Shown here: in pieces, positions 1 through 12,903 of the stretch | Position numbering within the stretch: the first letter of the stretch is position 1 | Layout: each line of letters begins with the position of its first letter | NCBI GenBank assembly: GCA_028709785.1 | Contig: JAQUTK010000006.1 | Span: 1 to 64,000, forward strand | Origin: Bacteroidales bacterium | GTDB taxonomy: Bacteria > Bacteroidota > Bacteroidia > Bacteroidales > JAQUTK01 | Reading direction: 5' to 3' | DNA length: 64,000 bases | The notes under the pieces: model-generated | The model's input: the letters and a program-made list of their open reading frames with translations, nothing else | What the model was told of the DNA's origin: nothing | The model's database searches: none | Program-made: the position numbers and the translations under genes

Positions 1-2
1 AT

Positions 3-551
3 CTGTTGTTCGCTCCGGTTCAACAATTTACCAACTTGCATCAACTCTCTTTCACCTCTTTTCAGGGAAAGAACATCGATGTCATGGTTGCAATCAGTAA
101 GGCCAACTGGATCTTATTGGCAGTGGTTGTTTCACTGTGGGGAATCCGGAAATTAGTTCAACGTAAGAAAACAGTCACGATAGCATCAACCTGGGGGTGT
201 GGATATACTGCCCCCACGGCAAAGATTCAATACACGGCAAGTTCATTTGTTAAGACTTACACCAAACTCTTTGGAACTATCTTTCTCATCCACCGGAAAG
301 AAAAAGAGGTGGAGGGTATCTTTCCTGCTGAAGCTCATCATGAGACGCATCCCTACGATATCATCGAACATGGATTGATCGATTATCCGATCCGTAAGTT
401 CAAGGAGTTTTTGAGCTTGTTTCTCTTCTTTCAAAACGGGAAATTGCAGTTTTATATCATCTACGGGATTCTCTTTATCGTTTCAGTGATTCTGCTCCCT
501 TTGATTTATGATGCCATTCTCTTATTTATCGAATCTTTTAAGCAACTATAA
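3..551 (+). CDS. hyfB: Hyf/Ehr complex antiporter-like subunit B, C-terminal part (5' end outside window)
   Basis: This is the C-terminal end of a large proton-translocating NuoL/HyfB-like membrane subunit; the frame is open to the left edge, so the gene starts before the window. About 182 residues remain. A membrane segment near residues 30-50 is followed by a long soluble stretch and a final membrane helix near residues 150-172, the usual tail of HyfB. The stop lies 2 bases before the next gene, which encodes the NuoH-like subunit, and the order B-C-E-F-G-I downstream fits a hydrogenase-4 type operon. In such complexes this subunit is the antiporter-like ion channel. The family call rests mainly on context and on the tail sequence. 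Confidence 0.8.
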   Translation: MLFAPVQQFTNLHQLSFTSFQGKNIDVMVAISKANWILLAVVVSLWGIRKLVQRKKTVTIASTWGCGYTAPTAKIQYTASSFVKTYTKLFGTIFLIHRKEKEVEGIFPAEAHHETHPYDIIEHGLIDYPIRKFKEFLSLFLFFQNGKLQFYIIYGILFIVSVILLPLIYDAILLFIESFKQL

Positions 552-553
552 AT

Positions 554-1459
554 ATGCTATCCATCTTATTAATCACTCTGGCCGCCACTTTCTTTACGGG
601 TATCATTATCCGTACGAAGAGCATAGCTTCCGGACGCAAAGGTCCGGGCATCTTTCAGCCAATCAAAGATGTCATCCGGCTGTTCAGGAAAGGAGCAGTC
701 TATAGTGAGACGACCAGTTTTATCTTTCAAATGATGCCGGTGATCTATTTCGCATCAGTCTTTGTGGCAATGCTGCTTGTTCCCTTTGGCCAATCCAAAG
801 GCATTTTGAGTTTCAGTGGTGACTTTGTGTTTTTTGCATACGTGCTTGGAATCGGAAAGTTTTTCAGTATCACTGGTGCCATGGACACAGGGAGTAGTTT
901 TGAAGGAATGGGTGCCAGTCGGGAGTCCCTTTATTCGATGTTTGCCGAACCGGCACTTTTTATTCTTATGGGTTCGTTATCGTTACTGACCGGCTATACA
1001 TCCTTTCAGGAAATATTTGCAGCATTACACCTCGGTTCCTCCATCAGCTATGCCTTGGCTTTAATGGCCGCCTTTGTCTTTTTGTTGATTGCCATGATTG
1101 AAAATAGCCGCATGCCCATTGATGATCCCAAAACGCATCTTGAACTGACCATGGTGCATGAAGTCATGATCCTGGATAACAGCGGTTTTGATCTGGGTCT
1201 GATCTTGTCGGCCGGTTATCTGAAGTTTGCGATCTACGGTACCATTATCTTTAACCTTTTTAGTGGTACTATTGCGTATGAGTATGCTATCCCCCTGTTT
1301 TTTGCAATCCAGGCTTTTCTGGCTTTTGTGATTGGAATGATTGAGTCATTTATGGCACGGTTCAGAATGAGTCATAACGCGCAATATATTGTTGTGCTTT
1401 CTTCTGTATCCCTGCTGGTGTTTTTTGGAGCGTTGCTTATCGCTGGAAAGTTTATTTGA
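554..1459 (+). CDS. hyfC: NuoH/HyfC-like membrane subunit
   Basis: A 301-residue polytopic membrane protein of the NuoH/HycD/HyfC family, which anchors the peripheral arm to the membrane arm of complex-I-like enzymes. Around residues 182-200 it carries the acidic loop ENSRMPIDDP followed by THLELTM, the hallmark of this family where charged residues face the quinone- or active-site-linked cavity. Length is typical. It starts 2 bases after the HyfB-like gene and is followed by a HyfE-like gene after a 49-base gap. Because the large subunit of this operon lacks Ni-Fe ligands, the subunit probably couples a non-hydrogenase reaction to ion transport; that step is inference. Confidence 0.88.
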   Translation: MLSILLITLAATFFTGIIIRTKSIASGRKGPGIFQPIKDVIRLFRKGAVYSETTSFIFQMMPVIYFASVFVAMLLVPFGQSKGILSFSGDFVFFAYVLGIGKFFSITGAMDTGSSFEGMGASRESLYSMFAEPALFILMGSLSLLTGYTSFQEIFAALHLGSSISYALALMAAFVFLLIAMIENSRMPIDDPKTHLELTMVHEVMILDNSGFDLGLILSAGYLKFAIYGTIIFNLFSGTIAYEYAIPLFFAIQAFLAFVIGMIESFMARFRMSHNAQYIVVLSSVSLLVFFGALLIAGKFI

Positions 1460-1508
1460 TGTTTTGTCCATTTCATTAGGAAACAATTATAAAACTATTA
1501 GAAGAATT

Positions 1509-2141
1509 ATGTTACACGTTCTGCTCATTATTTTCTTGATCTCTCTCTTTTATCTCTCCATAGCCAACCGTATGTCGACGTACGTCAATGTGTTGGCTTT
1601 TCAGGGTATCCTGCTTTTCTTTGTGGCATTTATGGAGTTGAAGAACATCAACACCCTCAATCTGATCCTGATACTTCTCGAGACGATTATCTTTAAGTCT
1701 CTTGCCGTTCCACTCTTCTTGAATTATGTGCTAAAGCGCAATCATATTACCCGGGAAGCAGAGCCTTTTGTTCCCAATTTTCTTTCCCTGATCATTACCA
1801 CTGTTATTGTGATTGTGACCATCCTCCTCTCTGATTTGATGAAAGAAGGAAGTTTTGATAAGATGTTTTTTGTGGTTGCACTCTCTACCTTATTTACCGG
1901 ACTCTATTTTATTGCTTCACGCCGTAAGATCATTACGCACGTCATGGGCTATCTGATTATTGAAAACGGCGTTTTTATCTTATCACTGGCCGTGGGAAGT
2001 GAAATGCCGATGCTTGTCAATCTGGGTATCATGCTGGATATATTTGCAAGTGTGCTTATTCTGGGTATTTTCTTAAACAAAATAGGGGATGTCTTTAAAG
2101 ATATTGACGTAGACCAACTCTCTAATCTGAAAGACTATTGA
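1509..2141 (+). CDS. hyfE: HyfE-like membrane subunit
   Basis: A 210-residue all-helical membrane protein between the HyfC- and HyfF-like genes, the place and size of HyfE in hydrogenase-4 operons. HyfE fuses a NuoJ/K-like set of helices. The ATG at 1509 was chosen because the longer frame, from 1389, would overlap the end of the hyfC-like gene and adds a non-hydrophobic leader; from 1509 the protein begins directly with a hydrophobic helix. About six predicted membrane segments are visible. Function in ion transport is inferred from the family. Confidence 0.82.
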   Translation: MLHVLLIIFLISLFYLSIANRMSTYVNVLAFQGILLFFVAFMELKNINTLNLILILLETIIFKSLAVPLFLNYVLKRNHITREAEPFVPNFLSLIITTVIVIVTILLSDLMKEGSFDKMFFVVALSTLFTGLYFIASRRKIITHVMGYLIIENGVFILSLAVGSEMPMLVNLGIMLDIFASVLILGIFLNKIGDVFKDIDVDQLSNLKDY

Positions 2142-2169
2142 TCATTGATGCTAAATTACAACTGAATTT

Positions 2170-3594
2170 ATGATACTGATATACCTTTTAAGCGTACTCC
2201 TCATTGGAACTTTACTTTTCTTCAACCGTGGGAAGGTACTCAATTACCCCCTGGTCTGCTTGTTTCTATTTGTGCAATGTGCATTTACTGTTTATGCCTG
2301 CTTACACTATAACGAATCGTCGAGTCATTATTTCACGTTTGACTCGCTGGGAATCATAATGCTGTGTACGGCAACTGTCATTTCCATACCGGCATCCTAT
2401 TACAGCTATATATATGTGGAAGACAGTCAGGTGAAACCCGACTCAAAGGCTATTTACTGGGGAGCATTTACTCTTTTGATCGCAGCGGTCAGTGCTTCCT
2501 TTTTGGCCAATCATATCGCTGTGATGTGGATCTTTACTGAAATAACCACCTTGAGTGCATCTGCTTTGATTTATCATCACCGCAACAAACTTGCTTTGGA
2601 GGGAACCTGGAAATATGTCTTCATTTGTGCTGTCAGCATCACCTTTGTGTATATAGGCATTCTGTTTTTAAGTTTGTCGATGGAAGGTGCCGGTTCAACG
2701 GATTTATCTTACAAGAATCTTTTAGCCAACAGTTCCCTGATTGATCCGCTGTGGTTACGCTTTGCTTTCCTGTTTGTTTTTACAGGCTTCACAGCCAAGC
2801 TGGGACTTTTCCCGATGTTTACCGCAGGAGTAGATGCTAAGGACAAGGCTCCCGGACCTGCTGCAGCTCTGTTTTCCAGTATTGTGATGTGTATGGGATT
2901 CGTTGGTATTTTTCGCACGTATATACTTGTTGCAAATACATCCCTACATCATTGGGCGAGTCTGGTTGTGGGAATAGCTGCTTTTTTATCGCTATTCATT
3001 GCAGCCGTTTACATGATAAAAGTGAAGAATATCAAGCGTATGATGGCTTATTCCAGTGTCGAACACATGGGATTGGTGATGTTGGGAATTGCCGCGGGAG
3101 GTATCGGATATTATGCAGCCATATTACATATCGTGTTGCATTCATTCGTTAAGTCAAGCCTTTTCTTTCAATACAACCAATTGTATAAGACATTTGGAAC
3201 CAAGGATATTTATCAGATGGGCAATTACTTTAAATATAATACGACCGGTGCTATTGTGATCCTTCTTGCAGTCATCAGTGTGACAGCTATGCCGCCCTCA
3301 GGACTGTTTGTGAGCGAACTTCTCATTTTCAGATCTCTGTTTGAGGCCAACCATCTGATCGTCCTGATCGTTGTGTTGTTATTGTTGACCCTGATTATCT
3401 GGTCACAAGCCAAAAACTTTTTCAAGATCTTGTATTCTCCGGTTGTCGGTTTTGACGAAACAAATGTTCCGCGGATTCCTTCCCACAGATCTGCTTTTCA
3501 ATTTGTCTTGCTGGCGGGAGCTGCTTATCTGGGTTTAAACCCTCCGGCGATTTTTGTGGAAATGATTAACGACTGTATCAGGTATCTGCCTTGA
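2170..3594 (+). CDS. hyfF: NuoN/HyfF-like antiporter subunit
   Basis: A 474-residue proton-conducting membrane transporter of the NuoN/MrpD/HyfF type with about fourteen membrane helices. The segment WIFTEITTLSASALIYH near residues 120-137 contains the conserved glutamate helix, and FTGFTAKLGLFPMF near residues 200-215 contains the conserved lysine on which proton pumping depends in this family. It lies 28 bases after the HyfE-like gene and 24 bases before the large-subunit gene. Together with the HyfB homologue it gives the complex two antiporter-like channels. Confidence 0.88.
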   Translation: MILIYLLSVLLIGTLLFFNRGKVLNYPLVCLFLFVQCAFTVYACLHYNESSSHYFTFDSLGIIMLCTATVISIPASYYSYIYVEDSQVKPDSKAIYWGAFTLLIAAVSASFLANHIAVMWIFTEITTLSASALIYHHRNKLALEGTWKYVFICAVSITFVYIGILFLSLSMEGAGSTDLSYKNLLANSSLIDPLWLRFAFLFVFTGFTAKLGLFPMFTAGVDAKDKAPGPAAALFSSIVMCMGFVGIFRTYILVANTSLHHWASLVVGIAAFLSLFIAAVYMIKVKNIKRMMAYSSVEHMGLVMLGIAAGGIGYYAAILHIVLHSFVKSSLFFQYNQLYKTFGTKDIYQMGNYFKYNTTGAIVILLAVISVTAMPPSGLFVSELLIFRSLFEANHLIVLIVVLLLLTLIIWSQAKNFFKILYSPVVGFDETNVPRIPSHRSAFQFVLLAGAAYLGLNPPAIFVEMINDCIRYLP

Positions 3595-3618
3595 TTAGTA
3601 TAAAAAGCATCAGTATTT

Positions 3619-5118
3619 ATGAACTATATAAGCATACGAAATAATCAGACTCTTCGGATCAAAGAGATACCGGAGAGTGCTTACTTATCCTTTATGGATA
3701 TGAATGTGGGTTTGGTGTCGGGATTTACAGACAGACACTGTGTGAACTATTTTGGAGTGGAAGAAGGCAATTTCGTGAAACTTATTTGCTGTATTGCCGA
3801 CGATGCAACACACGAGATCATGGTCTCTTCCTGCAAAGTGCAGAAAGGGCAGTCACTTGCCTCGTTCTCCAAAGAGATGTACTGCTTTGAACGATTTGAG
3901 CGGGAGATCCATGAGAACTTCGGTCTGAATTATCCGGATCATCCCTGGTTAAAGCCGGTACGTTATCCCGCAGATCGTTCAGATAAGATGCAAACGATGC
4001 AGAATTATCCCTTTTATACCATTGCCAGTGAAGAAGTTCATGAGGTAGGTGTCGGACCTATTCATGCCGGAATCATTGAACCCGGTCATTTCCGGTTTAT
4101 CTGCAACGGTGAAAAGATCCTCCATCTGGAAATACAATTGGGCTATCAGCACAGAGGTGTGGAGAATCTCTTTCTGGCAAAGAAGAAACTGCTTCAGCGT
4201 ACCACACTCTCAGAAAATATAGCCGGTGATACAGTCGTAGGTCATAGTGTCGCGTTTGCACATGTTTGGGAAAGTCTGTGTGGAGTAGATGTTTCCCGCG
4301 ATATTGCATTCTCGCGAACAGTTGCGCTGGAACTGGAACGAATGGCTATTCATATCGGTGACCTTAGTGCGATATGTACCGATATCGCCTACCAGCTCGG
4401 TAGTTCGGTCTTTGGGCGCTTACGTACACCCATCGTCAATTTCTTGCAGGAATGGGGGGGAAGCAGATTGGCGAAGGGGCTGATCAGACCGGGAAGTAAT
4501 CCCTTTCCTTTTACACCGGCATTGGCTGAACGACTCAAAAAGGTGTTGGATCTCCTGGAACCGGATTATAATGAGATGTGTGAGAAATTATTTGATTTAC
4601 CCAGTGCGCTGTCTCGCTTTGAGCGAACAGGTGTGGTGTCCAATGAAGACGCGATCGCAATTGGCGCTGTGGGTATGGCAGCGCGAATGACCAGTCTGAG
4701 CAGGGATATACGAAGTTCTCATCCCTATTGCCTCTATCCGGAGTTGGCCCATGTACCGATACTGAAACACCATGGAGATGTCTATTCGCGGGTGCAAATC
4801 AGAAGAAGGGAGGTCTTGCAATCTATGGAATATATTCGCAAACTACTCACTGAAGTACCAATCCAATCCCCACAAACAGAGATGAAGATGACTCTTCAGC
4901 CTGATTCCTTTTGTCTTTCTCTGGTGGAGGGATGGCGTGGTGAGATCTGTCATTGCGCGCTGACAGATGCGAACGGGGAACTGATGCATTATAAAATCAA
5001 AGACCCTTCGTTTCACAATTGGATGGCTTTAGCCTTAGCAGTCAGGAATAACGAAATATCCGATTTCCCGATTTGTAACAAAAGTTTCAATCTTTCGTAT
5101 TCGGGACATGATCTTTAA
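3619..5118 (+). CDS. NuoCD/HycE-like large subunit lacking all Ni-Fe cysteines (Ehr-type)
   Basis: A 499-residue homologue of the HycE/HyfG large subunit: an N-terminal NuoC-like part (about residues 1-125) followed by a NuoD/hydrogenase-like part. In true [NiFe] enzymes two CxxC motifs hold the metal centre. Here the first motif region reads SENIAGDTVVGHS, with A202 and T205 in place of the cysteines, and the C-terminal motif SFNLSYSGHDL has S493 and G496 instead. The protein therefore cannot bind a Ni-Fe centre as known. This is the signature of energy-converting-hydrogenase-related (Ehr) complexes, whose reaction is unknown. It follows the membrane subunits and precedes the small-subunit fusion. 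No maturation protease or hyp genes are in the window. Confidence 0.88.
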   Translation: MNYISIRNNQTLRIKEIPESAYLSFMDMNVGLVSGFTDRHCVNYFGVEEGNFVKLICCIADDATHEIMVSSCKVQKGQSLASFSKEMYCFERFEREIHENFGLNYPDHPWLKPVRYPADRSDKMQTMQNYPFYTIASEEVHEVGVGPIHAGIIEPGHFRFICNGEKILHLEIQLGYQHRGVENLFLAKKKLLQRTTLSENIAGDTVVGHSVAFAHVWESLCGVDVSRDIAFSRTVALELERMAIHIGDLSAICTDIAYQLGSSVFGRLRTPIVNFLQEWGGSRLAKGLIRPGSNPFPFTPALAERLKKVLDLLEPDYNEMCEKLFDLPSALSRFERTGVVSNEDAIAIGAVGMAARMTSLSRDIRSSHPYCLYPELAHVPILKHHGDVYSRVQIRRREVLQSMEYIRKLLTEVPIQSPQTEMKMTLQPDSFCLSLVEGWRGEICHCALTDANGELMHYKIKDPSFHNWMALALAVRNNEISDFPICNKSFNLSYSGHDL

Positions 5119-5151
5119 TACGAGGAGTTTACACATTAAAATCTCAATCAG

Positions 5152-5904
5152 ATGTTAAGCAATTTGAAGATCGTATTGCATCAGGGCAAACAATATATAG
5201 CTTCCCCAACTACGGTAGAGGTACCGGGTATATTCAGAGGACGCCCTGTTATCAGCACCCAAAAAGTGGATGAAACCAAACTGGTGGAAATGTGTCCCAC
5301 GGATGCCATCTCGAGTCATCCTCTGTGTATTGATCTGGGTAAATGCACCTTTTGTGGCGCATGCGCCAGACTGTTTCCGGATAAGATCTCATTTACCAAA
5401 GAGTACAAGATGGCTACCAATGACCGGGAACGATTGATCATCAAAGAAGGGGAAGACCAAGCGATAGAAGTCAATCCGGATACCGTACGTAAGGAGATAC
5501 ACCGGGTGTTTGGACATTCACTCAAGTTGAGACAGATTTCGGCAGGAGGAGATAATAGTTGCGAACTCGAGTTGAATGCCGCCAATAATGTGCAATTTGA
5601 TATGAGCCGCTACGGAATAGATTTTGTCGCATCACCCCGACATGCAGATGGAATCGTAATTACGGGTCCGATCACACAAAACATGGCCGAGGCGGTACAA
5701 ATCTGCTATGATGCCGTGCCCGATCCAAAGATCATTGTGCTCGTTGGTACAGATGCCATTAGTGGGGGTGTTTTCGAAGGTTCACCTGCGATAGATCGTA
5801 GTTTTCTCGACAAATATCCTGTGGATCTCTATATTCCCGGCAATCCGGCGCATCCACTGACTATAATCAATGGGTTGCTGGACTTAACACGCAAAAAAAG
5901 ATAA
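5152..5904 (+). CDS. Ferredoxin-small subunit fusion (HyfH/HyfI-like) with lost cluster ligands
   Basis: A 250-residue protein joining a ferredoxin-like N-terminus to a NuoB/HycG-like small subunit. C48 of the MCPTDAI segment plus C65, C68 and C71 can bind one [4Fe-4S] cluster. The second half aligns with HycG through RYGIDFVASPRHAD and TGPIT, but the proximal-cluster ligands are mostly replaced: positions equivalent to the cysteines are A131, D134, D201 (GTDAISGG) and N231 (IPGNPAHP); only C137 remains. Electron flow to the large subunit as in hydrogenases seems impossible. The gene ends the operon. Fusion of the two modules is seen directly; the functional conclusion is inference. Confidence 0.85.
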   Translation: MLSNLKIVLHQGKQYIASPTTVEVPGIFRGRPVISTQKVDETKLVEMCPTDAISSHPLCIDLGKCTFCGACARLFPDKISFTKEYKMATNDRERLIIKEGEDQAIEVNPDTVRKEIHRVFGHSLKLRQISAGGDNSCELELNAANNVQFDMSRYGIDFVASPRHADGIVITGPITQNMAEAVQICYDAVPDPKIIVLVGTDAISGGVFEGSPAIDRSFLDKYPVDLYIPGNPAHPLTIINGLLDLTRKKR

Positions 5905-5954: not shown

Positions 5955-7043
5955 ATGAGAATAGCATTCGTAGTACTTATTCTTATTCATGGGCTGATTC
6001 ATTTGCTTGGCTTTGTAAAAGCCTTCGAATTGTCGGAAGTAAAACAACTGACACAGACTATTTCAAAACCATTTGGAGTCCTTTGGTTGCTTGCTTTTAT
6101 CCTTTTTGTAGTGACAGCGATACTTTTTGCATGTAAGAATAATTCCTGGTGGATGTTTGGAGTCGCAGCACTGGTAATTTCCCAACTTCTGATCATATAC
6201 TTCTGGCGCGATGCAAAATTTGGAACAATACCCAATGTAATAATTCTGATCGCTTCTGTAATCGGATATGGAACATGGAGCTTTTACGACAGATATCAAA
6301 TGGATTTAAAAGTCGGCTCAAATCAGAAGACTTATTTTCAAGATTCGAAACTGACAGAAACAGATATTCAACAATTACCGGAGCCTGTAAAAAGATATAT
6401 TCGTTACACCGGTTCCATAGGAAAACCCAAAGTAAATTGTTTTAAAGTGGAATTTGTCGGAAAAATAAGAAAGAACGAACAATCTGAATGGATGCCCTTT
6501 ACTTCTGAACAGTATAACTTTATGGAAACGCCAACCCGCCTTTTTTTCTTGAAAGCAAAAATGAAAGGACTACCGGTTGAAGGTTATCACTGTTTCAAGA
6601 ACGGTGTTGCCTTTATGGACATCAGACTCTTTTCTTTGTTCAAAGTGCAATATATGGATGGGGAAGAGATGAACTTGTCGGAGACGGTCACTTTCTTTAA
6701 TGACATGTGTTGTATGGCTCCTCCTACGCTTATTGACAAGCGAATCAAGTGGCTGGAAGTAGAGGGTAATAACGTTAAGGCATCCTTTACGAATAACAAT
6801 ATCACCGTTTCTGCCTGGCTGTATTTTAATGATCAAGGTCAACTGATCAATTTTATTTCTCACGACCGCTATTCTGCTGATGCAGGGAAAAAACTACCCT
6901 GGGCAACCCCTTTGCGCGATTATCAGGAAATAAACGGGTATCGATTGTCGGGAAATGCAGATGCTGTTTATAGTTATCCCGATAGAGACTTGTGTTATGG
7001 AACTTTCAATATTGTCAAGATAGAATATAACAAAATAAACTGA
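5955..7043 (+). CDS. Membrane protein with DUF6544/DUF6920-like soluble domain
   Basis: A 362-residue protein of unknown function. Residues 1-115 hold about four membrane helices; the rest is a soluble beta-rich domain that opens with LPEPVKRYIRYTGSIG, a motif I associate with the DUF6544/DUF6920 family. The family name is from memory and moderate in certainty. The gene begins 50 bases after the Ehr operon and its stop lies 1 base before the next start, so it is probably co-transcribed with the lipoprotein gene that follows. Nothing in it suggests an enzyme active site. Confidence 0.65.
   Translation: MRIAFVVLILIHGLIHLLGFVKAFELSEVKQLTQTISKPFGVLWLLAFILFVVTAILFACKNNSWWMFGVAALVISQLLIIYFWRDAKFGTIPNVIILIASVIGYGTWSFYDRYQMDLKVGSNQKTYFQDSKLTETDIQQLPEPVKRYIRYTGSIGKPKVNCFKVEFVGKIRKNEQSEWMPFTSEQYNFMETPTRLFFLKAKMKGLPVEGYHCFKNGVAFMDIRLFSLFKVQYMDGEEMNLSETVTFFNDMCCMAPPTLIDKRIKWLEVEGNNVKASFTNNNITVSAWLYFNDQGQLINFISHDRYSADAGKKLPWATPLRDYQEINGYRLSGNADAVYSYPDRDLCYGTFNIVKIEYNKIN

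Positions 7044-9720: not shown

Positions 9721-12903
<3,183 letters not shown>

Follow-up and report, generated by a model that had tools for sequence, protein, structure and literature searches.

Ehr complexes are defined by a group 4-type large subunit from which the Ni-Fe cysteines are absent (PMC6349859, PMC10284858; CPR members, PMC7304191), and the published examples, from Riflemargulisbacteria, comammox Nitrospira, CPR and Geobacter (EhrA-L/S), have the same subunit set as the locus described here and a large subunit without Ni-Fe cysteines, or without metal-binding cysteines, as the CPR members were described (PMC7304191). Ehr large subunits form a group apart from those of HycE/HyfG and Nuo. 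The closest solved structures, with the same folds, belong to E. coli FHL/hydrogenase-4 (HycE, HycF, HycG; HyfB-I), and the relay of FHL runs in steps of <14 Å (PMC9474812). Pyrococcus MBS, a sulfane sulfur reductase, likewise has no Ni-Fe site and has an antiporter-type membrane arm; its proximal cluster, held by three Cys ligands, itself carries out the catalysis, and its relay consists of three clusters (PMC7684303). Respiratory complex I has homologous large and small subunits (Nqo4/Nqo6) and an E-channel, and how it couples the transfer of electrons to ion channels at a distance is a question of long standing.

The locus described here differs from each of these systems. Compared with E. 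coli FHL, its complex lacks the Ni-Fe ligands and the proximal cluster, has one ferredoxin cluster instead of two, and comes without a protease-cleaved C-terminal tail and without HypD. The catalytic proximal [4Fe-4S] cluster of MBS/Mbx cannot form in it, the cluster cysteines being absent, and, unlike complex I, it has no quinone-site His/Tyr, no N2 ligands and no NADH module in the operon. It also differs from most Ehr, which have four proximal-cluster cysteines where the type found here has no conserved one.

The window, i.e., the whole stretch of 64,000 nucleotides of Bacteroidales DNA that was analysed, begins at the end of a contig (C45) of a 3.55-Mb genome, and its bases 3 to 5904 hold a six-gene Ehr operon in the order hyfB, hyfC, hyfE, hyfF, large subunit and fused ferredoxin plus small subunit:

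3 to 551, + strand: hyfB, C-terminal 182 codons, NuoL-like ion channel (channel residues E138, K220, K251, K348 and E403 conserved)
554 to 1459, + strand: hyfC, NuoH-like membrane anchor, 301 aa (PF00146, E = 6.6e-33)
1509 to 2141, + strand: hyfE, NuoK/hydrogenase-4 E-like membrane subunit (NF008556, E = 4.8e-19)
2170 to 3594, + strand: hyfF, NuoM/N-like ion channel, 474 aa (PF00361, E = 3.9e-39)
3619 to 5118, + strand: Ehr large subunit, HycE/NuoCD-like, 499 aa (best solved relative HycE 7z0s_E, E = 8.7e-36)
5152 to 5904, + strand: ferredoxin domain fused to Ehr small subunit, HycG/NuoB-like, 250 aa (PF01058, E = 5.3e-23; PF00037)

The N-terminal 534 codons of hyfB lie on a separate 3.7-kb contig (C10, locus L162), and both contigs end within the gene, overlapping by 41 aa of hyfB coding sequence at window positions 1 to 125. 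Since joining the two yields a complete HyfB of 675 aa, no part of the operon is missing; the interruption is an assembly artefact and the gene is not truncated. The expectation that the antiporter subunits are intact is borne out by this join and by the conservation of their channel residues, which in HyfF are E124, K210, H324, K328 and E383. K103 and E192 of HyfE are conserved in all sequences (numbered on a 250-aa ORF; the start at 1509 was set from the orthologue length of about 210 aa), and the acidic coupling residues of HyfC (E183, D190, E197 and E203) are 99-100% conserved. Antiporter-like and NuoH-like membrane subunits are thus found within one operon, as is typical of Ehr. NuoB and NuoCD are encoded separately in the same genome, on another contig (C30).

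The original prediction had placed the two peripheral reading frames within 3619 to 5904, and both are present there, at 3619 to 5118 and 5152 to 5904. Their diagnostic sites are as follows:

4222 to 4233, + strand: A202-G-D-T205, replacing the CxxC with Ni-Fe ligands 1 and 2 (alignment to HycE)
5095 to 5115, + strand: C-terminus S493-Y-S-G496-H-D-L499, replacing the DPCxxC with Ni-Fe ligands 3 and 4 (alignment to HycE)
5293 to 5364, + strand: remaining [4Fe-4S] site C48, C65, C68 and C71, N6b position (conserved in orthologues spanning the site)
5551 to 5553, + strand: D134, in place of proximal-cluster Cys 1 (alignment to MbhJ/HycG)
5560 to 5562, + strand: C137, sole leftover proximal-cluster Cys (not conserved in orthologues)
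5752 to 5754, + strand: D201, in place of proximal-cluster Cys 3 (alignment to MbhJ/HycG)
5842 to 5844, + strand: N231, in place of proximal-cluster Cys 4 (alignment to MbhJ/HycG)

Alignments with HycE, MbhJ, HycG and Nqo4 confirm that the ligands have been replaced. In the large subunit, whose AlphaFold model (pLDDT 78) matches HycE 7z0s_E with a TM score of 0.80, A202/T205 and S493/G496 stand where HycE has its four Ni-Fe cysteines, just as had been proposed. A group 4 [NiFe] hydrogenase would combine these four cysteines with Hyp maturation; a check for the maturation genes found no HypD in the window's genome, nor in 21 of the 26 genomes with the window type, and with the Ni-Fe ligands absent the claim that hydrogenase chemistry is not possible holds. 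The ORF ends in alignment with R537, the final residue of mature HycE (HycE residues 182-537; PMC9474812), and therefore no processed tail is needed. The proton-exchanging Glu193 of HycE is matched by E154, an invariant residue of the pocket, and at the sites of His38 and Tyr87, the quinone residues of Nqo4, the large subunit has I153 and G203 in an alignment whose positions were mapped by hand. Relative to hydrogenases and complex I, the large subunit falls on the Ehr side of the tree (SH-aLRT 99-100, quick trees), which together with the motifs and the operon set sustains the earlier assignment to an Ehr-type complex.

The Ni-Fe cysteines have no counterpart in any of the 79 Ehr large subunits that we surveyed from many phyla, in which the first motif reads S/A-G-D-S/T/E/M (G-T in a few) and the second S-Y-S/A-G-x-D-L, where the protein stops. 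The absence of Ni-Fe ligands is therefore the part of the finding that is already published and common to all Ehr. Both subunits have indeed lost cofactor ligands, as originally put forward, but only the loss of the proximal cluster sets this locus apart from most Ehr.

All four proximal-cluster cysteines are kept in 54 of the 82 Ehr small subunits in our first survey, with small-subunit counts given throughout without the Ehr of G. sulfurreducens and M. tuberculosis and with relatives that are mostly metagenome assemblies. Where an Ehr with a canonical small subunit has these four [4Fe-4S] cysteines, which align with those of MbhJ/HycG, the window has D134, C137, D201 and N231. All 23 window-type sequences share D134, D201 and N231, and position 137 is C, A, G, N or T among close orthologues. 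Only C137 remains of the four ligands, and it is not conserved, so that the whole proximal site is effectively lost; by its sequence the small subunit is no longer able to hold the proximal (N2-position) [4Fe-4S] cluster. Of the residues first named in place of cluster cysteines, with only C137 left, D134, D201 and N231 are upheld and A131 is not, position 131 being no ligand position (an extra Cys in HycG, Ser in MbhJ and Ala in 68 of the 82 Ehr small subunits). The AlphaFold model of the small subunit (pLDDT 88) matches MbhJ 6cfw_J with a TM score of 0.85 (target length). The ferredoxin domain of the window type has a single [4Fe-4S] site, compared with two clusters in relatives; C48, C65, C68 and C71 are assigned to N6b by homology with 2[4Fe-4S] ferredoxins, and the outer N6a ligands are missing. 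The cluster loss in the small subunit is the new part of the finding and appears to be an unreported variant of Ehr: we found no report of it in the accessible literature, and priority is uncertain, with Coppi 2005 and Marreiros 2013 outside that scope.

Within a selected set of sequences the loss is all-or-none, with C/C/C/C in 35/35 cluster-bearing rows, positions 134, 201 and 231 free of Cys in 36/36 cluster-free rows, and no intermediates. The cluster-free rows form four groups: the window type, a CPR type, a Moranbacteria-like type, and a Methanosarcina/Methanoregula/Chloroflexota type. The window type occurs mainly within the window's own order, in about 25 of 99 order-level relatives. 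Its D/x/D/N replacement recurs in the Methanosarcina type (D/D/N in 6/6), most CPR-type rows have T or D/x/D/D, and the Moranbacteria type has T/E/G/D. One member of the window's order (L053, G013) has a CPR-type Ehr, with the small subunit first and no ferredoxin domain, apparently acquired from elsewhere.

Because one-origin constraints are rejected in both subunits, we estimate at least two cluster losses, and probably three. Members of the window's order are nested in a clade with relatives of the same phylum that keep the four cysteines (support of 100 in both trees, which were built by a quick method with SH-aLRT as the measure of support), and the nearest of these relatives (L164 and L147) have two ferredoxin clusters and a proximal cluster with all four Cys. 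A first large-subunit tree, built without the cluster-bearing relatives of the same phylum, was compatible with a single loss (AU, p = 0.285); after these relatives had been added, a single origin of all cluster-free rows was rejected for the large subunit (AU, p = 2e-70), as it was for the small subunit analysed without its ligand columns (p = 3.6e-4). A constraint placing the CPR, Moranbacteria and Methanosarcina types in one group was rejected more weakly (p = 0.02). D/D/N evidently arose separately in the window and Methanosarcina-type lineages. Since the same cluster loss occurred independently in other bacteria and in archaea, it seems that part of this ancient respiratory family translocates ions with no electron wire.

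Ligands lost from both subunits, together with the patchy presence among order-level relatives, could mark a decaying relic without function, a reading to which we give almost no credence. Out of the 64 large-subunit positions that are ≥95% identical in cluster-bearing Ehr, 57 are kept in the window type and 62, 64 and 60 in the other three cluster-free groups, and the small-subunit columns that changed relative to cluster-bearing Ehr are almost solely the cysteine ligands. The replacement residues are invariant, the gene sets are complete, gene order is conserved at most loci, and the genes are retained even where the operon is broken up, none of which is expected of a relic. Since these columns and the channel and coupling residues are kept and scattered genes are retained, window-type Ehr is, as far as the sequences speak, a real, selected and recurrent variant and not a product of decay. 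We infer that D134, D201 and N231 are not debris but were selected as a replacement, as a network of charges or hydrogen bonds or as a small site for a metal. In two genomes (L051, G054; L046, G057) the Ehr genes are dispersed on different contigs, with hyfC and the large and small subunits all retained.

Window-type operons have no conserved neighbour gene across 22 loci, and the ATP synthase and SulP neighbours that we observe are those of relatives' operons, not of the window operon. At four loci in CPR-type genomes (L057, L084, L088 and L091), an Ehr operon without an Fe-S motif lies directly downstream of F-type atpA/G/D/C, with overlapping reading frames of Ehr and ATP synthase genes at L057, and another CPR-type Ehr without an Fe-S motif (L058) is found near ATP synthase genes. 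No CxxCxxC motif was found in the cluster-free operons outside the window type, or within several kilobases around them. In Bacteroidota, an HTH-PTS_EIIA_2 protein and a SulP anion transporter are often encoded upstream of cluster-bearing Ehr operons; SulP adjoins Ehr at L165, L169, L170, L173 and L174, as well as at L147 and at L106, L109 and L120, and it also neighbours other canonical Ehr. The SulP/PTS_EIIA neighbours suggest that Ehr is linked to the homeostasis of anions or ions. A conserved 224-aa gene before hyfB, considered as a carbonic anhydrase, is an HTH plus PTS_EIIA_2 protein, and that candidate was rejected.

Our preferred reading, with a probability of about 0.5, is an ion-translocating complex that couples without the N2 electron relay and possibly is not redox at all. 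The membrane arm of HyfB, HyfC, HyfE and HyfF retains its ion-channel and coupling residues, and the Ehr pocket (S/A-G-D-S/T ... S-Y-S-G-x-D-L) stands in for the Ni-Fe or quinone residues. N6b is isolated, with its partner clusters on both sides gone; because the flanking clusters are absent, electron flow from ferredoxin to the pocket via the standard relay would be cut, and in the other cluster-free lineages it would be cut altogether. Ion movement would then be coupled to something besides N2-mediated electron transfer, most likely to a small ligand that binds or reacts in the pocket of the large subunit, which is conserved, with the signal passed to the channels through the conserved acidic chain of HyfC and with either the making or the spending of an ion gradient as the outcome. 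A coupling reaction other than hydrogenase chemistry, as originally proposed, is likely, given that the large-subunit pocket is unchanged and that the losses were repeated independently. A role in ion transport would fit the HTH-PTS_EIIA and SulP genes that precede the cluster-bearing relatives of the Bacteroidota type. The conserved [4Fe-4S] motif of the window type counts against this reading, since it is odd for a purely non-redox device.

The conservation of that N6b motif in window-type orthologues spanning the site would be expected if the complex were still redox with a rearranged relay, N6b taking electrons from an outside donor and passing them to a substrate or to a new cofactor at D134/D201/N231. 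Asp can ligate metals, by homology the fold brings the three replaced positions next to one another, and an Asp-ligated or other metal centre may occupy them. We nevertheless regard a rearranged relay as unlikely, if worth keeping in view: the fourth position (137) is not conserved, the cluster-free lineages that have no ferredoxin domain or Fe-S motif would need another solution, and the missing proximal cluster would leave a longer gap to the pocket, compared with steps of <14 Å in FHL (PMC9474812). A Mrp-type cation/proton antiporter, in which the peripheral arm would be a structural plug or regulator and the pocket would perform no chemistry, would account for antiporter-like subunits that are intact by channel-residue comparison and for the ATP synthase, SulP and PTS_EIIA neighbours of the relatives; it seems improbable to us, since a plug should drift, whereas the pocket matches that of cluster-bearing Ehr in conservation (57-64 of 64 columns), including the motifs that replace the Ni-Fe ligands. 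Overall homology to NuoCD and NuoB would also be compatible with a complex I-like ferredoxin- or NADH-quinone oxidoreductase. This is very improbable, because I153 and G203 take the places of Nqo4 His38 and Tyr87; in addition, N2 is gone, and the genome has its own NuoB/NuoCD.

Models of Ehr function that pass electrons through the proximal cluster are inapplicable to the cluster-free members, which narrows what Ehr may do. More tentatively, these complexes may represent a class within the complex I family that moves ions without any redox chemistry, the cluster having been discarded repeatedly since Ehr coupling never needed one, in which case cluster-bearing Ehr, too, may draw on, or itself drive, a non-redox reaction or transport step in the large-subunit pocket. 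With channels, coupling chain and pocket kept and the relay independently discarded several times, the need of coupling for redox chemistry becomes directly testable.

Immediately downstream of the operon, the window has a DUF6544/DUF6920 protein (5955 to 7043) that is not conserved beside other Ehr operons. Further on, two adjacent and similar esterase-like genes (664 and 384 aa; 9727 to 12903) lie near further carbohydrate-active-looking enzymes, in what looks like a polysaccharide utilisation region.
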